DNA from: an uncultured Bacteroidota bacterium
Lineage (GTDB): Bacteria; Bacteroidota; Bacteroidia; Chitinophagales; Chitinophagaceae
Reading direction: 5' to 3'
Length of the DNA: 53,174 nt
NCBI GenBank assembly: GCA_903924075.1
Contig: CAIYAG010000241.1
Coordinates: 1 to 53,174 of the forward strand
Under the pieces are notes generated by a model. That model searched no databases, had not been told where the DNA came from, and saw only the letters and a list, made by a program, of their open reading frames with translations. This document shows, in pieces, positions 25,916 to 40,285 of the stretch. How positions within the stretch are numbered: the stretch's first letter is position 1; each line of letters begins with the position of its first letter. Both the position numbers and the translations under genes were made by a program.

Positions 25916-27082
25916 ATGAGCGAAAAGGTCTATATATTCGATACCACACTGCGCGACGGAGAGCAAGTACCTGGTTGTAAGTTAAATGCAACAGAAAAAC
26001 TGGAACTAGCCCTGAAACTCGAGGCTTTGGGTGTTGACATTATTGAAGCCGGTTTCCCTGTTTCTAGTCCGGGTGATTTCGACTCTGTTTCTCAGATCGC
26101 CAAAGTCATCAAAAATGCTACTGTTTGCGGATTGAGCCGTGCAGTTCAAAAAGATATTGAAGTAGCTGGTCAGGCATTGAAATTTGCCAAGCGTTCTCGG
26201 ATCCATACAGGAATCGGTACTTCTGATTTTCATATCAAGAGTAAATTCAATTCTAATAGAGAAGATATTCTGGGAAGAGCCATTCAGTGCGTGAAATGGG
26301 CTAGAAATTATACAGATGATGTTGAGTTCTATGCAGAAGATGCAGGCAGAACAGACAATGAATATTTAGCAAGAGTAGTTGAAGCCGTGATTAAGGCTGG
26401 GGCTACCGTTGTAAATATTCCAGATACCACCGGCTATTGCTTACCATACCAATACGGAGAGAAAATTGCTTATTTGGTGAACCATGTTCCCAATATTGAT
26501 AAAGCAATTCTTTCCTGCCATTGCCACAACGATTTGGGGTTAGCCACCGCTAACTCCATAGCTGGCGTTATTAGTGGTGCTCGTCAGATCGAGTGTACCA
26601 TTAATGGTTTAGGTGAACGCGCTGGTAACACTGCTTTAGAAGAAGTGGTGATGATCCTTCAATCACATAAAGACCTTGGTTTTTATACAAATGTTGACGC
26701 CAAACAATTGAATCCTTTGAGCCGCGAGGTTTCGGATATCATGCGGATGCCTGTTCAACCCAATAAAGCAATCGTAGGAGCAAATGCATTTTCTCATTCA
26801 TCTGGTATTCATCAGGATGGATTTTTGAAAGATGCACAAACATATGAGATCATAAATCCAGAAATAGTAGGTGCAGGAGAAAGTAAGATCGTGTTAACAG
26901 CACGAAGTGGAAGAAGCGCACTGGCACATCGTTTCCAGAAAATTGGTTACCAGTTTAATCGTAATGATATCGACTTTTTGTACGAAAAGTTTTTACAGGT
27001 TGCCGATCGAAAAAAGGAAGTGGAAGAGAGCGATTTGCAAATGCTAGCGCAGGCTTATAGCCCCGCGTTGGCCACTAACTAG
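25916..27082 (+). CDS. leuA: 2-isopropylmalate synthase (short form without C-terminal regulatory domain)
   Basis: 388 aa; '[18 protein letters not shown]', '[19 protein letters not shown]', '[20 protein letters not shown]', '[19 protein letters not shown]'. Confidence 0.87.
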
Positions 27083-27113
27083 GGTTTTCTCATAAGTATA
27101 GTTTTAGTTTTTA

Positions 27114-27141
27114 CGCGTGGCGCTTTTGCGCCGCGCTTTTT
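27114..27141 (+). terminator. Intrinsic terminator after leuA
   Basis: GCGtGGCGC-tttt-GCGCCgCGC followed by TTTTT. Confidence 0.8.
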
Positions 27142-27206
27142 AAGTCAATCCAAACCTTGATTATTGTAAGAAATAATATTTGAGGTTTTAATTAATAGCA
27201 GAGTTC

Positions 27207-27238
27207 TTTGTTTATTTCGGATGACAGTACTAAATTCG
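27207..27238 (+). promoter_or_regulatory. Candidate Bacteroidota-type promoter for the ilv leader/operon
   Basis: TTTG (27207-27210) - 20 nt - TAAATTCG (27231-27238), close to the -33 TTTG / -7 TAnnTTTG consensus (one mismatch in -7); places the TSS just before the leader ATG. Confidence 0.45.
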
Positions 27239-27253
27239 CAATAATAACAGCCA

Positions 27254-27355
27254 ATGTTACAAAGCAAATTAAATAATGTCATTACCATTAGCACAGTCGT
27301 TACGATTGTGTTGGTCATTATTATTCCTGCTCTGAACGGAGGTTGCGCAATTTGA
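27254..27355 (+). CDS. ilv operon leader peptide MLQSKLNNVITISTVVTIVLVIIIPALNGGCAI
   Basis: 33-codon ORF ending TGA; 7 Ile, 5 Val, 4 Leu, 3 Thr; directly followed by a strong terminator and then ilvE. Confidence 0.85.
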   Translation: MLQSKLNNVITISTVVTIVLVIIIPALNGGCAI

Positions 27356-27378
27356 TAGTTACTTATAAACTAAATATA

Positions 27379-27414
27379 AAAGCCCCGCCTCGAAACAGGC
27401 GGGGCTTTGTTTTT
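27379..27414 (+). terminator. Attenuator terminator upstream of ilvE
   Basis: AAAGCCCCGCCT-cgaaac-AGGCGGGGCTTT 12-bp perfect stem then TTTGTTTTT, 23 nt after the leader stop codon. Confidence 0.9.
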
Positions 27415-27453
27415 ACACACATCCGAAAATTAACTAAAGAACAAAAAAGCGTT

Positions 27454-28332
27454 ATGGCAAATTATTACAACGAAAACACGATCATCTATCTCGATGGCCA
27501 ATTTGTGAAAGCAGCTGAGTCGAAAATTGATTTATATAGTCAATCACTACACTATGGTTTCGCTGTTTTTGAAGGTATTCGTTCTTATAGAACAACAAAC
27601 GGCAGTACACAGATCTTCAAAGCGAAAGAACACTACGATCGTTTAAAACATTCTGCCGATTCATTAAGACTTCCCTACAATTATCAATCAGAAGAATTGA
27701 TCGAAGCAACTTATGAAGTATTAAAACAAAATAATTTACAGAACGCTTATATCCGCCCGCTAGTTTATGGAGCAGCGAACATGTCGTTCAACCTCAATAC
27801 TGAAGCACACTTAACCATTCAAGCTTGGGAAATGGGTGCATTCTTAGGAGATAAATTATTACGCATTGGGACATCAACATTTCAACGTCCCAATCCGAAA
27901 GGTTTTAAAATTACCGCGAAAGCTTCTGGTCATTATGTAAACAGCATCCTCGCTAGTTACGAAGCGAAAGACAGAGGCTATGATGAAGCATTATTGACAG
28001 ACATGAATGGTTATGTAGCAGAAGGCCCAGGTGCGAATATGTTTTTTGAAAAAGATGGCCAATTATTAACACCATCACTGGGAAATATATTACCGGGAAT
28101 TACTCGTGCAACCGTTTTAGATATCTGTAAAGACATGGGCATTGCTGTTGAAGAAAAATTCTTTACCAAAGAAGAAGTTTATGCTGCAGATGCTGCCTTT
28201 TTCTGTGGTACAGCTGCTGAGGTCATTGGCTGGGAAAGCCTTGATGGCATTGCGTTTAAGAAAGATTGGAACGATACATTAGGAAAAAAAGTACAGGACG
28301 CATATAAAGCATTAATTGTAGCGAATAAATAA
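27454..28332 (+). CDS. ilvE: Branched-chain amino acid aminotransferase
   Basis: Start at ATG 27454 (MANYYNENTIIYLDGQFV); 'SQSLHYGFAVFEGIRSY', 'GYDEALLTDMNGYVAEGPGANMFF'. Confidence 0.94.
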   Translation: MANYYNENTIIYLDGQFVKAAESKIDLYSQSLHYGFAVFEGIRSYRTTNGSTQIFKAKEHYDRLKHSADSLRLPYNYQSEELIEATYEVLKQNNLQNAYIRPLVYGAANMSFNLNTEAHLTIQAWEMGAFLGDKLLRIGTSTFQRPNPKGFKITAKASGHYVNSILASYEAKDRGYDEALLTDMNGYVAEGPGANMFFEKDGQLLTPSLGNILPGITRATVLDICKDMGIAVEEKFFTKEEVYAADAAFFCGTAAEVIGWESLDGIAFKKDWNDTLGKKVQDAYKALIVANK

Positions 28333-28355
28333 TACGAATCGGAAATTAGAAGATC

Positions 28356-30035
28356 ATGGAATTAAACAAGTATAGCAAAACAATTACACTAGATGCCACA
28401 CAACCTGCTGCGCAGGCAATGTTCTATGGCATTGGTTTAACAGACGAGGATTTACAAAAAGCACAAGTAGGTGTAGTTAGTATGGGCTATGATGGCAATA
28501 CTTGCAATATGCACTTGAATGAGTTGGCTCAAAAAGTTAAGAAAGGAGTTTGGGAAAATAATTTAGTCGGCCTCATTTTCAACACCATCGGCGTAAGTGA
28601 TGGAATGAGTAATGGTACAGACGGGATGCGTTACTCTTTGGTGAGCAGAGATGTGATCGCAGATTCTATCGAAGCTGTTTGTGGCGCACAATATTATGAT
28701 GGTTTGATTGCCATCCCTGGTTGCGATAAAAATATGCCTGGCTCACTCATTGCAATGGGTCGATTAAATCGCCCTGCAATCATGGTTTATGGTGGAACCA
28801 TTGCTCCTGGTCATTATAAAGGTCAAGACCTAAATATTGTTTCAGCTTTTGAAGCACTTGGACAAAAGATCGCAGGCAATTTAAGTGAAACAGATTTCAA
28901 AGGAATTGTACAACATGCTTGCCCTGGTGCTGGGGCTTGTGGTGGTATGTATACTGCAAACACCATGGCTAGTGCTATTGAAGCATTGGGCATGAGTTTG
29001 CCTTTTTCATCTTCGAATCCTGCGTTGAGTGATGAAAAACAAAAAGAGTGTGAAGACGCAGGTGCAGCCATTAAATTATTACTGGAGAAAGATATCAAGC
29101 CAAGAGATATCATGACACGTAAAGCATTTGAAAATGCGATTACGCTGATCATGATCTTGGGCGGTTCTACAAATGCAGTATTGCACATGATCGCAATTGC
29201 AAAAAGTGTAGACGTTGAATTAACGCAAGATGATTTTCAAAAGATCAGCGATAAAACTCCTGTCTTAGCAGATTTCAAACCTAGTGGCAAATATCTAATG
29301 CAAGACCTTCACCAATATGGTGGTGTTCCTGCAGTAATGAAATACTTATTAAAGAAAGGATACTTACATGGCGATTGTTTAACCGTTACCGGAAAAACGA
29401 TTGCCGAGAATTTAGAAAATATGCCTGATCTGGACTTTGATCAGCAGAAAATAATTATGCCTCTTGAAGCACCATTAAAAGCTACTGGTCACTTACAGAT
29501 CTTATACGGCAACCTTGCTGAAAAAGGTTCTGTGGCAAAGATCAGTGGTAAAGAAGGTGAGAAATTCGTTGGGCCAGCTCGTGTATTCGATGGTGAACAA
29601 GAATTGATCAAAGGTATCAACAGTGGAAAAATCAAACACGGTGATGTGGTGGTGATCAAACACGTGGGGCCGAAAGGCGCACCAGGTATGCCTGAAATGT
29701 TGAAACCAACTTCAGCAATCATTGGTGCTGGTTTAGGTAAATCAGTTGCTTTAATTACTGATGGAAGATTTAGCGGTGGTACACATGGATTTGTGGTAGG
29801 TCATATTACACCTGAAGCATTTGTGGGTGGGTTGATCGGACTAGTAGAAGACGATGATATCATTGAACTAGATGCGGTGAACAATACCATTCACCTTCGA
29901 GTCAGTGATGAAATTATTGCTCAGCGTAGAGCAAATTGGAAACAACCTGCTTTAAAAGCAACCAAAGGTTTGTTATTCAAATACGCACAATGTGTGAAAG
30001 ATGCTTCAGAAGGTTGTGTAACCGACGAAGCCTAA
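28356..30035 (+). CDS. ilvD: Dihydroxy-acid dehydratase
   Basis: 559 aa; '[25 protein letters not shown]', '[28 protein letters not shown]', '[21 protein letters not shown]'. Confidence 0.96.
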
Positions 30036-30066
30036 AATAATTCAGTTCAACAATCAATTTTTACTG

Positions 30067-31803
30067 ATGGAAACTTTAGAAGCAAAAAAAGAAACAACAG
30101 CAACAAAACAAACGCAAACAATTAACGGATCTCAAGCCGTTTTAGAAGCATTTGTAGCAGAAGGAGTGGATACCATATTCGGATATCCCGGCGGTGCGAT
30201 CATGCCGATTTATGATGCACTCTATGATTACCACGATAAACTAAAACATATCCTTGTGCGTCACGAACAAGGCGGCATTCATGCTGGTCAGGGATACGCG
30301 CGCGCTTCTGGAAGAGTGGGTGTAGTTTTTGGTACCAGCGGTCCGGGTGCTACTAACTTAGTTACCGGTTTAGCAGATGCCATGATCGATAGTACGCCAC
30401 TTGTGTGTATCACTGGTCAAGTATATGCTCACTTATTGGGTACCGATGCATTCCAAGAAATCGATGTGATCAATATCACTACACCTGTAACTAAATGGAA
30501 TTATCAGATCACTGATGCAACAGAAATTCCTGCTGTACTTGCAAAAGCCTTTTACATTGCAAAGACTGGACGCCCTGGTCCAGTGTTAATCGACATCACC
30601 AAGAACGCGCAATTACAAAATTTCGAATACGAAGGTTATACCCCTTGTACACATATTAGATCTTATCGCCCTAAACCAATTGTTCGTAAAGAATTCATTG
30701 CAGAAGCGGCAGCGTTGATCAATCAAGCTGAAAAGCCTTTCGTGATTTTTGGTCAAGGTGTGATTTTAGGAAAAGCAGAAAAAGAATTCAAAGCCTTTAT
30801 CGAAAAAGCGGGTCTTCCTGCGGCATGGACTGTAATGGGATTGAGTGCATTGGATTCAGACCATCCTTTGAATGTGGGTATGCTTGGTATGCATGGTAAC
30901 TACGGCCCAAATGTATTAACCAACGAATGCGATGTGTTGATCGCCATTGGTATGCGTTTCGATGATCGCGTTACTGGCAGATTAGATAAATATGCAAAAC
31001 AAGCTAAAGTAATTCATTTCGATATTGATCCATCTGAGATTGATAAGAACGTGAAAACTGCAGTAGGTGTTTGGGGCGATTGTAAAGAAACGTTACCGCT
31101 ATTAACCAAATTAATAGAAGAAAAACAACATACAGCATGGGTGAATAAATTTCACGAATACATGGCCGAAGAAGTGAAAGAAGTTATTCATGAAGAACTG
31201 AATCCAACAGATGATATTTTAACAATGGGCGAAGTAATTCGCAATTTGAATGAGTTAACTGGTGGTAATTCTATCATTGTAACTGATGTGGGTCAACACC
31301 AGATGGTTGCGTGCAGATATGCTAAATTCAATAAATCAAAAAGCAATATCACTTCTGGTGGTTTAGGTACCATGGGATTTGGTTTACCTGCATCTATCGG
31401 TGCTAAGTTTGGTGCCCCAGATCGTCAGGTCATTGCAATTATCGGTGATGGAGGTTTTCAAATGACGCTGCAAGAACTAGGCACCATTATGCAAAATGAT
31501 GTGGATGTAAAAATTCTGATCCTGAATAATCAATTCCTTGGAATGGTGCGTCAGTGGCAGCAATTGTTTAATGATAAGCGTTATTCATTTGTGGATATTG
31601 CTAGTCCAGATTATGTCACATTAGCTAAAGCTTACGGCATTGAAGGGCAGCGTATCAATCAACGTGAAGTTTTACGAGACGCGCTATCAACCATGTTGCA
31701 TCACAAAGGCTCTTATCTATTAGAAGTTATGGTGGGTAAAGAAAACAATGTGTTCCCAATGGTACCGCAAGGTTGTAGTGTAAGCGAAATCAGATTAAAG
31801 TAA
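30067..31803 (+). CDS. ilvB: Acetolactate synthase large subunit
   Basis: 578 aa; 'IFGYPGGAIMPIYDALYD', 'HEQGGIHAGQGYARASGRVGV', 'GDGGFQMTLQELGTIMQNDV'. Confidence 0.95.
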   Translation: METLEAKKETTATKQTQTINGSQAVLEAFVAEGVDTIFGYPGGAIMPIYDALYDYHDKLKHILVRHEQGGIHAGQGYARASGRVGVVFGTSGPGATNLVTGLADAMIDSTPLVCITGQVYAHLLGTDAFQEIDVINITTPVTKWNYQITDATEIPAVLAKAFYIAKTGRPGPVLIDITKNAQLQNFEYEGYTPCTHIRSYRPKPIVRKEFIAEAAALINQAEKPFVIFGQGVILGKAEKEFKAFIEKAGLPAAWTVMGLSALDSDHPLNVGMLGMHGNYGPNVLTNECDVLIAIGMRFDDRVTGRLDKYAKQAKVIHFDIDPSEIDKNVKTAVGVWGDCKETLPLLTKLIEEKQHTAWVNKFHEYMAEEVKEVIHEELNPTDDILTMGEVIRNLNELTGGNSIIVTDVGQHQMVACRYAKFNKSKSNITSGGLGTMGFGLPASIGAKFGAPDRQVIAIIGDGGFQMTLQELGTIMQNDVDVKILILNNQFLGMVRQWQQLFNDKRYSFVDIASPDYVTLAKAYGIEGQRINQREVLRDALSTMLHHKGSYLLEVMVGKENNVFPMVPQGCSVSEIRLK

Positions 31804-31840
31804 CAAATTCTATCATTAAAAATTCCCTCCGGGGTTGGCT

Positions 31841-32431
31841 ATGAATAAACAAGAATTTACCATCACCGTATACACCGAAAACCATATTGGTTTATTGGTT
31901 CGTATCGCTACGATGTTCTCTCGTAGAAAAATCAATATCGAAAGTTTAAATACCTCTCCTTCCGAAGCAGAAGGCATCCACCGTTTTACCATCGTGATCA
32001 ATGAGTTTGAAGAAGTGGTAAGAAAACTGGCTCGCCAAATTGAGAAACAAGTAGAAGTATTAAAAGCATATTACAATACGAACGATGAGATCGTTTGGCA
32101 GGAATTAGCATTGTATAAAGTATCAACCGACGAGATCGCTGAAAAAGCAAAAGTAGAAAGGTTGTTACGTGAGCATGGTGCTAGAGCAGTAGTGATCCGT
32201 AAAGACTATACCATTTTCGAAACAAGCGGACATAGAGAAGAAACAGATAAGCTGGTAGAGGTATTGGCTCCTTATGGATTAATAGAATTTGTAAGAAGTG
32301 CAAGGGTTGCGATCATTAAAGCTTCACATGGCTTCCACGAAAAATTAAGAGAGTTCGAAGAAGCAATGCCGGGCGAAGAACAAGTAGAAAACGAATTCCT
32401 GAATAAACAGGAAGGGATATTCACTATGTAG
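31841..32431 (+). CDS. ilvN: Acetolactate synthase small subunit
   Basis: 'EFTITVYTENHIGLLVRIATMFSRRKINIESLNTSPSEAEGIHRFTIV' ACT domain; ATG at 31841 preferred. Confidence 0.93.
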   Translation: MNKQEFTITVYTENHIGLLVRIATMFSRRKINIESLNTSPSEAEGIHRFTIVINEFEEVVRKLARQIEKQVEVLKAYYNTNDEIVWQELALYKVSTDEIAEKAKVERLLREHGARAVVIRKDYTIFETSGHREETDKLVEVLAPYGLIEFVRSARVAIIKASHGFHEKLREFEEAMPGEEQVENEFLNKQEGIFTM

Positions 32432-32503
32432 TTTTAATCATCCATAAAAATATTCATCAACAAAACCAAGATCTCAAAGATTTAGGAAAACAAAACAAAA
32501 CAA

Positions 32504-33988
32504 ATGGGCAATTATTTTAACACACTATCACTAAGAGAAAAATTAAATCAATTAGGCGTTTGTGAATTCATGGACAAATCTGAATTTGCTGATGGCGTTG
32601 ATAAATTAAAAGGAAAGAAAATAGTGGTTGTTGGTTGTGGCGCACAGGGTTTGAACCAAGGTTTAAACTTACGCGACTCAGGTTTAGATGTTTCTTACAC
32701 TTTGCGTAAAGAAGCGATCGAAGCAAAACGTCAGTCATGGAAATCTGCAACTGAAAACAATTTCAAAGTAGGCACTTACGAAGAATTAATTCCTACTGCC
32801 GATCTAGTAATTAACCTAACTCCAGATAAACAGCATACTTCAGTAATCACTGCCATCATGCCTTTGATGAAACAAGGTGCTACGCTTTCTTATTCTCACG
32901 GTTTTAATATCGTAGAAGAAGGTATGCAAATCCGCAAGGATATCACTGTAATTATGGTGGCTCCAAAATGCCCGGGTTCTGAAGTTCGTGCAGAATATCA
33001 GCGTGGCTTTGGTGTACCTACTTTAATTGCAGTTCACCCAGAGAACGATCCAGAAGGAAAGGGTTGGGAATATGCAAAAGCATATTGCGCAGGTACTGGC
33101 GGACATAGAGCTGGAGTATTAAAATCCTCTTTCGTTGCAGAAGTGAAATCAGATCTAATGGGAGAGCAAACCATTCTTTGTGGTTTGTTACAAACAGGAT
33201 CTATTCTTTGCTTCGACAAAATGGTTGAGAAAGGAATTGATAAAGGATACGCTTCTAAATTAATTCAATACGGATGGGAAGTGGTGACCGAAGCTTTAAA
33301 ACAAGGCGGTATCACTGCCATGATGGATCGTTTATCGAATCCGGCAAAAGTAAAAGCATACGAATTGTCGGAAGAATTGAAAGACATTATGCGTACCCTA
33401 TTTCAAAAGCACCAAGACGATATCATGAGCGGAGAATTTTCTAAGACCATGATGGAAGACTGGGCTAATAACGATAAAAACTTATTGACGTGGAGAGCGG
33501 CAACAGGTGAAACTGCTTTTGAAAAAACACCAGCAGGCGATGTAAAAATTGCTGAGCAAGAATATTTCGACAATGGTTTATTGATGGTGGCTTTTGTTCG
33601 TGCCGGTGTTGAGTTGGCATTTGAAACAATGGTTGAATCTGGTATCAAAGAAGAATCAGCATACTATGAATCATTACACGAAACACCATTGATCGCAAAC
33701 ACCATCGCTCGTAAAAAATTATTCGAAATGAACCGTGTCATTTCTGATACGGCTGAATATGGTTGTTATTTATTTGATCATGCATGTAAGCCATTGTTGG
33801 CCGATTTCATGAAGAAAATTGATACTGATGTGATCGGTAAAAATTTCAACGCTGGCATTGATGCGGGTGTTGACAATAAAGTGATCATTGCAGTAAACGA
33901 GGTTTTACGTTTCCACCCAGTTGAAATTGTGGGAGCTGAATTGCGTAGTGCAATGACTGATATGAAAACAATTAGTACTGTAGCATAA
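32504..33988 (+). CDS. ilvC: Ketol-acid reductoisomerase (class II)
   Basis: 494 aa; '[42 protein letters not shown]', '[23 protein letters not shown]'. Confidence 0.95.
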
Positions 33989-34020
33989 TAATTGCAGATT
34001 TTAAAGTCGGGCCCAAACCT

Positions 34021-35313
34021 ATGATAACATTGCAAACCAATATCAATTCTGAAAAGGATGAGCAAGTAATTGCCAATGGGTTTGGGCTTGACTTTAGTGC
34101 TGCAGTAATCAGATTGAAGGGTGTGATCAATAGAACACCATTGTCTTACAATCATAACCTTTCAAGAAAATACCAATGCGATGTGTTTTTAAAAAGGGAA
34201 GACCTTCAAATTGTTCGTTCTTATAAATTAAGGGGTGCTTATAATATGATGAGTGCCTTGTCAAAAGACATTCTTTCAAAAGGTGTAGTATGCGCCAGCG
34301 CCGGAAACCATGCACAAGGTTTTGCCTACAGTTGCAAAAAATTAAAAACAAAGGGCGTTGTATTTATGCCCATCATCACTCCAAATCAAAAAGTAAGTCA
34401 GACCAAAATGTTTGGCGAAGATTTTATTGAGGTCAAACTAGTTGGAGATACTTTTGATGATTGTGCAATTGCAGCAAAGAAATATACTGAAGAAAATGAA
34501 ATGACATTCATCCCACCATTTGATGATTTGAGGATCATTGAAGGACAGGCAACGGTTGGGGTTGAAATATTAGAAGATGCTTCAGATATTGATTTTGTAT
34601 TTGTGCCTATTGGTGGAGGCGGACTAAGCGCGGGTGTGGGTGCCTATTTTAAAACATTCTCTCCAAAAACAAAGATCATCGGACTGGAGCCAGAAGGTGC
34701 ACCTTCTATGAAAGAGGCATTAAAAGCTGGGCATCCAGTTGTGCTAGACGAAATAGAACGATTTGTAGATGGTGCTGCTGTAAAACGGGTTGGCGATATC
34801 CCATTTAAAATTTGTAAAGAAGTTTTAGATGATATGCACTTAGTTAATGAAGGGCATATTTGTTCGTCGATCTTAAAATTATACAACGAAGACGCCATTG
34901 TGGTTGAACCCGCTGGCGCTTTGTCGATCGCTGCATTGGATGATTATGCAGAAACTATCAAAGGAAAAAAAGTGGTTTGTATTGTAAGTGGTGGCAATAA
35001 TGATATCGACAGAATGCAGGAGATCAAAGAAAGATCACTGCAGTTTGAAGGATTGAAACACTATTTTTTAATTCGATTCGCACAACGGCCCGGTGCTTTA
35101 AAAGAATTTGTGAACCATGTACTTGGTCCGGATGACGACATTACCAGATTCGAATACATGCAAAAGCATAATAAGGAAACTGGGCCAGCCTTAGTGGGTG
35201 TAGAATTAAAAGCGCGTGGGGATTATGATGTACTGGTGGCTAATATGAAGCGGTATCATATCAATTTCACAGAACTCAACAAAAACGATAATATTTTCGG
35301 CTATCTGGTTTAG
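34021..35313 (+). CDS. ilvA: Threonine deaminase (biosynthetic threonine ammonia-lyase)
   Basis: 430 aa; 'REDLQIVRSYKLRGAYNMM', 'SAGNHAQGFAYSCK', 'VPIGGGGLSAGVGAYFK', C-terminal ACT-like region. Confidence 0.93.
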   Translation: MITLQTNINSEKDEQVIANGFGLDFSAAVIRLKGVINRTPLSYNHNLSRKYQCDVFLKREDLQIVRSYKLRGAYNMMSALSKDILSKGVVCASAGNHAQGFAYSCKKLKTKGVVFMPIITPNQKVSQTKMFGEDFIEVKLVGDTFDDCAIAAKKYTEENEMTFIPPFDDLRIIEGQATVGVEILEDASDIDFVFVPIGGGGLSAGVGAYFKTFSPKTKIIGLEPEGAPSMKEALKAGHPVVLDEIERFVDGAAVKRVGDIPFKICKEVLDDMHLVNEGHICSSILKLYNEDAIVVEPAGALSIAALDDYAETIKGKKVVCIVSGGNNDIDRMQEIKERSLQFEGLKHYFLIRFAQRPGALKEFVNHVLGPDDDITRFEYMQKHNKETGPALVGVELKARGDYDVLVANMKRYHINFTELNKNDNIFGYLV

Positions 35314-35353
35314 AATAGAGAATAATAATTATCTTAGCAACTCGAGATTGAAA

Positions 35354-35449
35354 ATGAACGTAGCACAAAAACATATTATCACTTCTACTTCAACAGCTTC
35401 TACGCTGCTTGCTGCTACAACATTTACAACAACTACTACGACCCTGTAA
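35354..35449 (+). CDS. thr operon leader peptide MNVAQKHIITSTSTASTLLAATTFTTTTTTL
   Basis: 31-codon ORF ending TAA, 12 Thr including six consecutive, directly upstream of thrABC; candidate -7 element TATCTTAG at 35330-35337. Confidence 0.87.
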   Translation: MNVAQKHIITSTSTASTLLAATTFTTTTTTL

Positions 35450-35457
35450 GGGGTTGT
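35438..35457 (+). other. Hairpin overlapping the thr leader stop codon (candidate attenuator element)
   Basis: ACGACCCT-GTAA-GGGGTTGT: 8 bp including 2 G.U, GUAA tetraloop, followed by TATTT; role undetermined. Confidence 0.5.
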
Positions 35458-35550
35458 TATTTCCATATCATCCATGGGCTGAACTAACAGCTGTTATCAA
35501 AAAGAGTTGATCGTTTTCAAAATCTTCCTTCGGGAATAAGAAATAAACCT

Positions 35551-37995
35551 ATGCAAGTTTTAAAATTCGGTGGTAGTTCTGTAGCAAATGCTATAAACAT
35601 GAATAAAGTTGTAGCCATAGTAGTTGAGGCTGCTAAAAAAGAAGCTACATTATTAGTGGTTTCTGCAATGGGTGGTGTTACAGATAGCTTGATCAATACG
35701 GGAACATTAGCAGAATCTGGCGATGAATCTTACAAAAACATTTTGAAAGATCTGGAGCAAAAACATTTAGATGCTGTAAGAGATTTATTGCCCATTCAAC
35801 AACAGAGTGCCACACTTAGTCAGGTGAAACAAAAATTCAACGAGTTAGAAGCTATCAGTGATGGTATTTTTTTACTGGGTGAATTGTCAGACCGTACGAA
35901 AGATAAGATGGTAAGCTACGGAGAATTACTTTCTTCATTGATGATTGCAGCTAAGTTAAAAACCGCTAACGATGCAGCGCTCTGGGTAGATTCACGACTA
36001 TTAATTCGAACTAATTCAAATCATGGTAATGCATTTGTTGATATAGCGATCACTACCGAAAATGTAACAGGATTCTTTAATAGCAATGCTGCAAATGTTT
36101 ATATAGCTCCTGGGTTTATAGCAAGTGATGCTCATGGTCATACCACCACATTAGGAAGGGGTGGCTCAGATTATACTGGCGCTATTTATGCAGCGGCATT
36201 AGAAGCATCTGTTTTAGAAATTTGGACCGACGTAAGTGGGATGATGACTGCAGACCCAAGACTGGTCAATAATGCAAGACCCATTCATCGGATCTCTTAT
36301 CAGGAAGCAATGGAACTATCTCATTTTGGGGCAAAGATCATTTATCCGCCAACTATTCAGCCAGTAATGAAACAGAATATTCCAGTATGGATCAAGAACA
36401 CTTTTGCTCCAGATGAATATGGCACACTTATAGAAAATAGTTCAGCACATACCGATAATATTATTCGAGGCATCTCTTCGATCAATAAAATTAGCTTGCT
36501 CAGTTTAGAAGGAAGCGGCATGGTGGGTATCCCGGGGTTTTCCAAACGTTTGTTCGAAGCACTTGCCAACGAAACTGTGAATGTTATTTTAATTACCCAG
36601 AGTTCTTCTGAACATTCTATCTGTGTAGGTATTAACGAATCTGAAACAGCCAAAGCAAAACGCGCCATTGATCATGCTTTTAGTTTTGAAATTCAAAGCG
36701 GGAAAGTAGAACCACTAAAAGTTGAGAAAGGTTTATCCATTGTGGCTTTAGTGGGTGAACAAATGAAAAGTCACCCAGGTATCAGCGGTAAAATGTTTGG
36801 CGTACTTGGAAGAAACGGGATCAATGTAAGAGCTATTGCTCAGGGTTCTTCAGAAAAAAACATTTCTGCAGTACTATCTGCATCGGATGTACAAAAAGCA
36901 ATTAACGTTTTACACGAAGAATTTTTTGAAACTACTTATAAACAGCTCAACTTATTTATTGCAGGAACTGGAAATGTTGGTAGTAAACTATTAGCACAAA
37001 TTCAAAAGCAATATCAATACTTACAAGATAATCTTCGCTTACAAATTAGAATTGTAGGTTTAGCAAATAGCAAGAATAATTTGATCAACGAAGAAGGAAT
37101 TGATCTGAGTATTTGGAAAGATCAATTGGCGGGTTCATCAAAAGGCAGCATCCACGATTTTGTAGAAGTGATCAGAAAACTGAATTTACGTAATAGTGTG
37201 TTTGTTGATGTTACTGCCAATGCAGATGTTGCATCAATTTATACTAAACTATTAGAAAAGAGTATTTCTGTGGTGGCTTGTAATAAAATTGCTTGCTCAT
37301 CCTCTTATGCTTCTTATCAAAATTTAAAATCATTGGCGCGAGAATTCAACGCCTTATATCTCTATGAAACCAATGTTGGCGCTGGTTTGCCTGTGATTGG
37401 CACTTTGAACGATCTATTGAGAAGCGGTGATCAGGTTAGTAAGATACAAGCGGTGCTTTCAGGTACACTCAATTTTGTGTTCAATAATTATGATGGCACC
37501 AAGCCATTTGCACAAGTGGTACGTCAGGCTCAGGATGAAGGATATACTGAACCAGATCCACGTTTAGATTTGGGGGGCACTGATGTCATGCGTAAGATCA
37601 TGATCTTAGCTCGTGAAGCCGGACAAAAACTAGAAATGGAAGATATCAGTAATGAATATTTCTTACCGGCATCTTGCTTTGAAGGATCGGTTGCAGATTT
37701 TTATGCGGAGATGGAAAAACAGGAAGCACATTTCAAAGCAATCTATGAAGCAGCGGCAGCAAAGAATTGTAAGTTGAAATTTGTAGCCAGTTATGAAAAT
37801 GGAAAAGCTTCTGTTGGCTTACAACATATCCCTGCTAATTCAGATTTCTATCATTTATATGGTAAGGATAATCTGGTCTTATTCTTTACCGAACGATATC
37901 CAGAACAACCATTGGTGATCAAAGGGGCCGGAGCCGGTGCAGAAGTAACCGCATCTGGTGTATTTGCAGATATTATTCGTGTTGCAAGAGTGTAA
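35551..37995 (+). CDS. thrA: Bifunctional aspartate kinase / homoserine dehydrogenase I
   Basis: 814 aa; N-terminal 'MQVLKFGGSSVANAINM', C-terminal 'IAGTGNVGSKLLAQI', 'YETNVGAGLPVIGTLNDLLRSGD'. Confidence 0.96.
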   Translation: MQVLKFGGSSVANAINMNKVVAIVVEAAKKEATLLVVSAMGGVTDSLINTGTLAESGDESYKNILKDLEQKHLDAVRDLLPIQQQSATLSQVKQKFNELEAISDGIFLLGELSDRTKDKMVSYGELLSSLMIAAKLKTANDAALWVDSRLLIRTNSNHGNAFVDIAITTENVTGFFNSNAANVYIAPGFIASDAHGHTTTLGRGGSDYTGAIYAAALEASVLEIWTDVSGMMTADPRLVNNARPIHRISYQEAMELSHFGAKIIYPPTIQPVMKQNIPVWIKNTFAPDEYGTLIENSSAHTDNIIRGISSINKISLLSLEGSGMVGIPGFSKRLFEALANETVNVILITQSSSEHSICVGINESETAKAKRAIDHAFSFEIQSGKVEPLKVEKGLSIVALVGEQMKSHPGISGKMFGVLGRNGINVRAIAQGSSEKNISAVLSASDVQKAINVLHEEFFETTYKQLNLFIAGTGNVGSKLLAQIQKQYQYLQDNLRLQIRIVGLANSKNNLINEEGIDLSIWKDQLAGSSKGSIHDFVEVIRKLNLRNSVFVDVTANADVASIYTKLLEKSISVVACNKIACSSSYASYQNLKSLAREFNALYLYETNVGAGLPVIGTLNDLLRSGDQVSKIQAVLSGTLNFVFNNYDGTKPFAQVVRQAQDEGYTEPDPRLDLGGTDVMRKIMILAREAGQKLEMEDISNEYFLPASCFEGSVADFYAEMEKQEAHFKAIYEAAAAKNCKLKFVASYENGKASVGLQHIPANSDFYHLYGKDNLVLFFTERYPEQPLVIKGAGAGAEVTASGVFADIIRVARV

Positions 37996-38021: not shown

Positions 38022-38969
38022 ATGAGCGATATATATAAAGGTTTGGATCTTGATCGGGTAGTGAAAATTCATTCACCAGCAACCGTTGCAAATATGGTCT
38101 GTGGGTTTGATGTGTTAGGATTTGCGGTGAACGAACCATACGATGAAATGCAGATTCGCTTTTCAAATAAACCTGGTATCACCATCATTAATGATGACGA
38201 ATACGATCTGCCTACAGAACCCGAAAAAAATGTTGCAGGTGCAGCACTCATTGCCTTAATGGATGAAATTGAACCTGGTTTTGGTTTTGAATTAACGATC
38301 AAAAAAAATATCAAACCAGGAAGCGGTGTAGGATCAAGTGCGGCAAGTGCAGCAGGTGCGGTAGTTGCAGCCAATCGTTTGTTGAACGACCGATTTGATC
38401 AGGAAACGCTTGTTCGATTCGCTATGAACGGCGAAAAATTAGCATCTGGTGTGAAGCATGCTGATAATATTGCGCCTTGTATTTATGGAGGTGTTACTTT
38501 GATTCGCAGCATTTTTCCTTTAGATATCATTGCTTTAACCGCACCCGTTTTATATGTAACCATCGTACATCCGCAAATTGAAGTAAAGACCTCAGACGCA
38601 AGAAGCATACTCAAACACAAAGTGTTGTTGAAAGATGCCATTAAACAATGGGGCAATATTGCTGGATTAGTAGCAGGCTTATTAAAATCTGATTACGAAT
38701 TAATTGGCCGCTCATTAGAAGATGTGATCATCGAACCTGTGAGAAGTATACTCATTCCTGGCTTTGATCTTGTAAAACAAAAAAGCAAGGAAGCTGGTGC
38801 ATTGGGTGGTGGTATTTCAGGAAGCGGACCCTCTATTTTTATGTTGAGTAAAGATGAAGCAACAGCGATTGCGGTTGAAAAAGAAATGCAATTGATTTAT
38901 GAAAATCTAAGATTAGATCACCATACTTATGTAACTACCATGAATCATAACGGTGTTCAATTTGTATAA
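38022..38969 (+). CDS. thrB: Homoserine kinase
   Basis: 315 aa; 'KIHSPATVANMVCGFDVLGFAV', 'IKPGSGVGSSAASAAGAVVAANRLL' GHMP kinase motif. Confidence 0.95.
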   Translation: MSDIYKGLDLDRVVKIHSPATVANMVCGFDVLGFAVNEPYDEMQIRFSNKPGITIINDDEYDLPTEPEKNVAGAALIALMDEIEPGFGFELTIKKNIKPGSGVGSSAASAAGAVVAANRLLNDRFDQETLVRFAMNGEKLASGVKHADNIAPCIYGGVTLIRSIFPLDIIALTAPVLYVTIVHPQIEVKTSDARSILKHKVLLKDAIKQWGNIAGLVAGLLKSDYELIGRSLEDVIIEPVRSILIPGFDLVKQKSKEAGALGGGISGSGPSIFMLSKDEATAIAVEKEMQLIYENLRLDHHTYVTTMNHNGVQFV

Positions 38970-38983
38970 AATTAATTCTGACA

Positions 38984-40285
38984 ATGAACTATTATAGTCT
39001 CAATAAAAATACAGCTAATGTAGATTTTCGGGAAGCAACCATTAAGGGTCAGGCTCCAGATAAGGGTTTGTATTTTCCCGAATCAATTCCTAGTGTTGCT
39101 GCAGATTTGATCAAAAATATAAGCGGTTATTCGAAAGAAGAATTGGCATTCGAGATCATGTTGCCTTATGTAGGCAACACGATTTCTAAAACAGATCTAC
39201 AAAAAATTGTTGCAGAAACTATCAACTTTCCTTTTCCACTTGTGGCTGTAAATAGGGAGATCTATTCTCTAGAATTATTCCATGGACCAACCCTTGCATT
39301 CAAAGATGTGGGTGCACGTTTTATGAGCAGGTGTTTAGGCTATTTCTCTACGCAACAAAAAAACAAAGTAACGGTACTGGTTGCAACTTCGGGTGATACT
39401 GGGGGTGCAGTTGCGAATGGATTTTTAGGTGTGGAAGGAGTAGAAGTTGTGATCCTTTATCCGTCTGGTAAAGTGAGTCCAGTGCAGGAATTGCAGTTAA
39501 CTACATGCGGACAAAATATCAAAGCCCTAGAAGTAAAAGGCAGTTTTGATGATTGTCAGGCAATGGTGAAAGACGCATTCATGGATGTAGATCTAAACAA
39601 TCATCTCACACTTACTTCGGCAAATAGTATCAATGTAGCAAGATGGCTACCACAACAATTGTATTATTTCTTTGCTTATCAACAATGGATCAAGGAGCAT
39701 GATACAGCACCTGTAATATCAGTGCCTAGTGGCAATTTTGGAAATATCTGTGCTGGATTATTAGCACATGTGAGTGGTTTACCTGTAGAACATTTTATTG
39801 CAGCTTGCAATGTAAATGATGCGGTACCAGAATATTTGAGAACAGGAAATTATCAATCTAAAAAAGCGGTGCCCACTATTTCTAATGCAATGGATGTAGG
39901 TAGTCCGAGTAATTTTGTACGAGTTCTAGAATTATTTCAGAACAATTACCAAACTATCAGCGAAAAAATATCTGGTTACACAGTAAGTGATGAGATCACC
40001 AAACAAACCATTGCCGAAGTATATCAAAATGATCATTACTTATTAGATCCACATGGTGCAGTGGCGTATTATGCATTAGCAGCATACCAAAAATCAAATC
40101 CAGAAAAAAAGGGAATGATCTTAGAAACAGCACATCCAGTAAAGTTCCCAGACACTGTAGAAAAGGTAATAAGCAAAACCATAGAGATACCAGAATCAGT
40201 TAAACCCTTATTCACTAAAGAAAAGCAATCGGAATTGATCAGCCCAAATTTTTCAGCCCTGAAAAATTGGCTATTAAGTCAATAA
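38984..40285 (+). CDS. thrC: Threonine synthase
   Basis: 433 aa; 'LELFHGPTLAFKDVGARFMSRCL', 'VLVATSGDTGGAVANGFLG', 'SANSINVARWLPQQLYYF'. Confidence 0.95.
   Translation: MNYYSLNKNTANVDFREATIKGQAPDKGLYFPESIPSVAADLIKNISGYSKEELAFEIMLPYVGNTISKTDLQKIVAETINFPFPLVAVNREIYSLELFHGPTLAFKDVGARFMSRCLGYFSTQQKNKVTVLVATSGDTGGAVANGFLGVEGVEVVILYPSGKVSPVQELQLTTCGQNIKALEVKGSFDDCQAMVKDAFMDVDLNNHLTLTSANSINVARWLPQQLYYFFAYQQWIKEHDTAPVISVPSGNFGNICAGLLAHVSGLPVEHFIAACNVNDAVPEYLRTGNYQSKKAVPTISNAMDVGSPSNFVRVLELFQNNYQTISEKISGYTVSDEITKQTIAEVYQNDHYLLDPHGAVAYYALAAYQKSNPEKKGMILETAHPVKFPDTVEKVISKTIEIPESVKPLFTKEKQSELISPNFSALKNWLLSQ

Follow-up and report, generated by a model that had tools for sequence, protein, structure and literature searches.

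Introduction

The enterobacterial thr leader, thrL, is a short Thr-rich ORF situated right before thrA-thrB-thrC. Vitreschak in 2004 and Lopatovskaya in 2010 reportedly predicted attenuators outside the proteobacteria as well. In Bacillus subtilis tlrB (yxjB) a stalled ribosome blocks the terminator, there is no overlapping antiterminator, and NusG-dependent pausing synchronises ribosome and polymerase (PMC6851288). In actinobacterial ilvB leaders the branched-chain codons overlap the terminator hairpin, and codon substitution in the Streptomyces coelicolor ilvB leader was without effect (PMC1262725). Closer to the present case, a study of Flavobacterium psychrophilum contains clues to leader peptides before amino-acid operons (PMC9723704), and Bacteroid-trp (RF01692) is listed as cis-regulatory (PMC2864571).

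Here we describe a thr leader in a stretch of 53,174 nucleotides (the window) from an uncultured member of the Chitinophagaceae. Like thrL, it is a short Thr-rich ORF (rich in Ile too in relatives) right before thrA-thrB-thrC, for which the same signal and the same logic can be presumed. Unlike thrL, it lacks a U-tract terminator, its hairpin overlaps the final sense codons and the stop codon, and no antiterminator was found. It resembles tlrB in that no overlapping antiterminator was found, in that a ribosome near the 3' end of the leader would prevent hairpin formation, and in the putative part of pausing in the timing; the trigger would differ, being a macrolide at an RYR motif in tlrB and probably hungry Thr/Ile codons here, and the pause site is likewise a prediction. 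The overlap of codon run and hairpin is shared with the actinobacterial ilvB leaders, whose hairpins differ in carrying poly-U runs.

Leader-peptide attenuation has long been known, this phylum included, and the new part is the thr variant without a canonical terminator. We found no account of the element in the open literature searched. We consider it probable, at about 60%, that the leader is a threonine-responsive attenuator of thrABC (responsive to isoleucine too in relatives) that acts by ribosome occlusion of an OFF hairpin. Much of the class Bacteroidia, in which the control of amino-acid operons is little known, would then share a conserved thr regulator that is apparently absent from existing catalogues.

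A threonine-rich leader ORF before thrABC

The leader ORF (35354..35449; this and all features given below with coordinates in the thr region lie on the + strand) comprises 31 codons, from the ATG at 35354 to the TAA stop at 35447-35449. It encodes the peptide MNVAQKHIITSTSTASTLLAATTFTTTTTTL, with Thr at 12 of the 31 codons, six of them consecutive (codons 25-30, ACA ACA ACT ACT ACG ACC, 35426..35443). The ORF was read directly from the sequence and has homologues before thrA in relatives, in which Thr/Ile codons are conserved at the position of the run. It is located 102 nt 5' of thrA, in the interval between the end of ilvA at 35313 and the thrA start at 35551. Curated protein models identified the gene 5' of the leader as threonine ammonia-lyase (ilvA), and the genes behind it as thrA, a bifunctional aspartate kinase/homoserine dehydrogenase I (35551..37995; NF006959, 1032.7 bits), thrB, homoserine kinase (38022..38969; NF002288/TIGR00191), and thrC, threonine synthase (38984..40285; TIGR00260). 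The source genome is incomplete (471 contigs), and its nearest named relatives are Bacteroidetes/Chitinophagaceae metagenome genomes and Sediminibacterium.

The start codon, peptide, Thr count and six-Thr run put forward in the original prediction agree exactly with the sequence, and the protein models confirm its placement of the ORF before a fused thrA followed by thrBC. Its interval, 35354-35550, starts correctly, but the ORF ends at 35449 and the remainder is the gap up to thrA. The ORF had also been described as missing from the ORF track; this holds for the ATG-started form of 31 codons, but a TTG-started version of 33 aa (35348-35449) is listed, and is the only form in which the leader appears there. 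The ORF is ready for immediate annotation.

Among 882 ORFs of 15-60 aa in the six frames of the window, the leader alone combined a Thr content of 30% or more with a TTTT run, and 20 Markov-2 resamplings of the window gave no comparable Thr-rich ORF. The ORF is short, as a functionless Thr-rich ORF arisen by chance could be, but such an origin is extremely improbable, since position, codons and hairpin are conserved across families, no similar control ORF was found, and the comparative data below contradict it.

A candidate Bacteroidota -7 promoter element, TATCTTAG (35330..35337), matches the consensus TANNTTTG at 5 of 6 positions. Nearly all leaders have a similar box 10-41 nt (mostly 12-28) before their start codon, and in many of them the match is 6/6. 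The 5' UTR predicted from so close a box is very short, roughly 5-15 nt.

Distribution of thr leaders in the Bacteroidia

Of 80 thrA loci collected, 77 had sufficient upstream sequence. A Thr/Ile-rich ORF precedes thrA in about 44 of these 77 Chitinophagaceae loci, ending 64-217 nt before the gene, so that the check that could have refuted the original prediction, a lack of such an ORF in relatives, did not refute it. A conserved short ORF rich in codons for the product of the operon, and 5' of that operon, is thus present, as in leader-peptide attenuators generally.

The distance from leader stop to thrA, ranging from 64 to more than 200 nt, and the lack of conservation near the start codon argue against control of thrA translation, in which the leader or its hairpins would govern how accessible the thrA start site is, or in which leader and thrA would simply be translationally coupled. 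Control at both levels is combined in B. subtilis tlrB (PMC6851288), but as the explanation of the present leader we regard translation control as very unlikely.

In most of the leaderless Chitinophagaceae loci ilvA ends 10-60 nt before thrA, which leaves too little space for a leader, and thrABC directly behind ilvA is probably part of the ilv transcription unit. At L237, L238, L240 and other loci where ilvA abuts thrA, the thr leader is absent and thrABC is apparently joined behind the ilv operon. The ilv leaders of species without a thr leader have only slightly raised numbers of Thr codons.

Relatives were grouped under the family labels f1, f33, f36, f53, f59 and f73, of which we infer f73 to be Flavobacteriaceae-like. 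In the wider class, thr leaders occur in f73 (L143-L146, L153 and most of L184-L212), before thrA in the f33 genomes L152, L154 and L155, and in f53, f59 and f36, whereas the thrA loci examined from several other families had no Thr/Ile leader. When the same element was sought before other genes of its own genome, a sequence model and pattern recovered the thr site only; two further pattern matches were rejected, lying inside or at unrelated genes.

A hairpin formed by the last codons of the leader

Hairpin I, ACGACCCU-GUAA-GGGGUUGU (35438..35457), has the codons Thr29-Thr30-Leu31 as its 5' arm and a G plus the UAA stop as its loop. It was found in all 34 aligned sequences, with 5-10 bp. Anchored at the stop codon, the consensus of the window type reads ACN-ACC-C(U/G)N-UAA-(A/G)GGGUUGU, followed by RUUUYCAUAUYAYC and then by NNNGGGCU. 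Compensatory variants keep the pairing, as AUUACCC/GGGUAAU in L076 and CAAUCCGC/GCGGAUUG in L098. The hairpin core of the f36 leaders is strand-swapped (ACGGG/CCCGU), and its GNRA-like loop contains UGA or UAA; the stop is located in such a GUGA/GUAA loop in L160, L163, L169, L173 and L180, and in some f36 leaders a distal GCCCC copy could compete for the 5' arm. Most f73 sequences have a hairpin ACCCC-UUU-GGGGU with the stop codon 3' of it, and in L097 the loop stop is changed (GUAAA) and the ORF extends (RKGLCI), with the hairpin retained. As L097 and the f73 sequences show, the stop often lies in the loop, but this placement is neither universal nor essential.

Codon usage at the arm bears on the same hairpin. 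ACC is the final Thr codon, at the hairpin arm, in 66 of 66 leaders, as compared to 60 of 410 Thr codons (15%) elsewhere, and the penultimate Thr codon ends with A or G in 49 of 54 leaders, which supports the notion that Thr codon choice at the arm serves pairing. An alignment with MAFFT/RNAalifold yielded only 3 bp because loop lengths differ, so base pairs were tallied in Python for each sequence separately. The excess of core pairs over the shuffle control was modest, since CCC/GGG is common to most sequences, and codon choice is the stronger evidence for hairpin I.

Counted back from the hairpin arm in 67 leaders, the combined share of Thr and Ile is 100, 100, 88, 84, 85 and 85% at the six nearest codons, 52-70% in the next three, and approximately 8-45% farther upstream. 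With Thr/Ile codons piled up beside the hairpin, a starved ribosome would most often stop with its leading edge over hairpin I. As the last codons serve as its 5' arm, the position of the ribosome would decide whether the hairpin forms, as in an attenuator, and the overlap of hairpin I with the stop and the final Thr codons favours direct ribosome occlusion over a terminator/antiterminator switch.

Proposed mechanism

Threonine-dependent regulation via the leader is likely, judging from codons, position and conservation. Leader translation, the threonine response, hairpin I as the OFF structure and the factor involved are elements that we infer. The leader mRNA would begin a few bases 5' of the ORF. 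Under a shortage of charged tRNA-Thr, the ribosome would slow at codons 25-30, and its footprint would cover the 5' arm of hairpin I, so that the hairpin could not form behind the polymerase, which would read on into thrA. With ample threonine, the ribosome would get to the stop codon in the loop and be released, and hairpin I could form. The polymerase would then pause, and transcription would end some dozen bases farther on, close to or at CATATYAYC, either intrinsically on a weak U-tract, through pausing at the motif, or aided by a factor (Rho or NusG, for example). That occlusion of this kind can work in principle is known from B. subtilis tlrB (PMC6851288). Two observations count against occlusion here: the U-tract of hairpin I is weaker than those of the his and ilv terminators, and the window leader has further Thr codons between positions 10 and 23, and a ribosome held up at those would not prevent hairpin I from forming. 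If it operates as proposed, the leader is a compact natural test system in Bacteroidota for direct ribosome occlusion and polymerase pausing.

Terminator and antiterminator structures

A terminator scan of 27000-36000 detected no terminator-like site on the + strand at 35317-35550, and a GC-rich hairpin with a U-tract, the classical signature, is missing between the window leader ORF and thrA. Counted in Python, strong U-tract terminators were present in 3 of 44 thr leaders versus 18 of 20 his leaders taken from the same genomes and their relatives. By a loose criterion 20 of the 44 thr leaders pass, and in 18 of these the structure is hairpin I itself, including that of the window (CGACCCUGUAAGGGGUUG and then UUAUUUCC), a point in favour of hairpin I as the OFF structure. 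Neither at the gathering threshold nor with E-values relaxed to 10 did Rfam scans give anything relevant, RF00506 (Thr_leader) included. The enterobacterial analogy on which a threonine-sensing leader was first proposed is strongly supported for the sensing peptide, which is conserved before thrA, but not for the RNA, in which neither an Rfam Thr_leader match nor a canonical U-tract terminator nor a conserved antiterminator was found. The sensing ORF and the terminator switch, the two halves of attenuation, come apart in this element.

Downstream of hairpin I is a possible weak hairpin II region, GGGCU...AGCUG (35473..35498), which is short and has a stability above the shuffle mean in 77% of 44 leaders. 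Hairpin I might conversely be the ON structure, permitted by an early-stalled ribosome and letting the polymerase pass a downstream Rho-dependent or hairpin II terminator, with a ribosome at the stop melting hairpin I and causing termination in the manner of a classical attenuator. The conserved motif and GGGCU hairpin II downstream fit such a scheme, as does the stop in the loop, which places the terminating ribosome directly on hairpin I. We nevertheless judge it unlikely: hairpin II has no U-tract of his or ilv strength, the Thr/Ile codons sit where a stalled ribosome blocks rather than frees hairpin I, and the pairing of the leader ORF with the downstream region (-14.9 versus a shuffle mean of -13.7 kcal/mol) is not clearly beyond that of shuffles or swapped partners. 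From the same pairing analysis no antiterminator element shared across leaders emerged; a weak or lineage-specific one may still exist.

A repeated linear motif

The 53 kb contain three occurrences of CATATYAYC, two of them inside the window leader and 92 nt apart. The 5' copy, CATATTATC (35372..35380), has its ATAT at start codon +19, and the 3' copy, CATATCATC (35464..35472), which is conserved, has its ATAT 7 nt past hairpin I. In 52 leaders with the ATG picked blind to the motif, the 5' copy recurred at start +19/+20 in 24, compared to a codon-shuffle expectation of 0.0064 per leader, although the sequences are related and the counts are not independent events. The 5' copy is fixed relative to the start codon, while its distance to the hairpin varies, and the 3' copy mostly starts 6-11 nt beyond the hairpin I stem.

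In Chitinophagaceae the 5' copy reads His-Ile-Ile/Thr, and Asn, Asp or Tyr may replace His. Three f73 genomes carry it one base out of that frame, where it encodes Lys/Thr-Tyr-His/Gln-Ser, and many further f73 sequences have no more than a CATA-like version. The occurrence in differing reading frames argues for selection at the nucleotide level. A peptide signal 'HII[ST]' was considered and rejected, since other residues with NAT codons (Asn, Asp, Tyr) take the place of His and the frame differs in f73.

It is conceivable, but doubtful, that NATATYAY makes RNA polymerase pause at two points, near start +20 and at the decision point after hairpin I. The constant position relative to the start codon and the differing reading frames speak for this. 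The first pause, some 20 nt past the start codon, would hold the polymerase until a ribosome has loaded on the nearly leaderless message. If true, the attenuator would need no terminator/antiterminator pair and would rely on direct occlusion by the ribosome together with a pair of timed pauses.

The linker 3' of hairpin I may instead point to Rho. Leader translation would in that case shield or expose an unstructured pyrimidine-rich sequence, UUUCCAUAUYACC, that loads Rho. This linker is indeed C/U-rich, unpaired and conserved, and the scan had found no intrinsic terminator in the leader region, but its conservation base by base, at a near-fixed distance to the stem, exceeds the needs of a rut site, and Rho control of this kind seems improbable to us.

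Other leaders in the window and the class

Within the Bacteroidota, the ilvE leader of the window, the his leaders and the thr leaders of f59 are likewise rich in the cognate amino acids before the matching operon, but unlike the window-type thr leader they have strong U-tract terminators. Classical thr attenuators of this kind precede thrA in f59 (L159, L164, L168, L170, L171, L176 and L177), with, as an example, GGAGGAAG at the ORF end and CUUCCUCC...GGAAGGC-UUUUUUU downstream; the thr leaders of one class thus comprise at least two RNA architectures. In the window, a second leader peptide, MLQSKLNNVITISTVVTIVLVIIIPALNGGCAI (ORF 27254-27355), is found before ilvE-ilvD-ilvB-ilvN-ilvC-ilvA, followed by a textbook terminator at 27379-27414 (AAAGCCCCGCCTCGAAACAGGCGGGGCTTTGTTTTT), which the terminator scan placed at 27379-27408 as a 12-bp stem with a U-tract, and this leader is conserved in relatives. 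Histidine leader peptides with strong terminators are found before hisG across the class (L213-L236), and the his leader of the source genome itself (L225, contig C361) reads MITTTHKHHHHILPIW.
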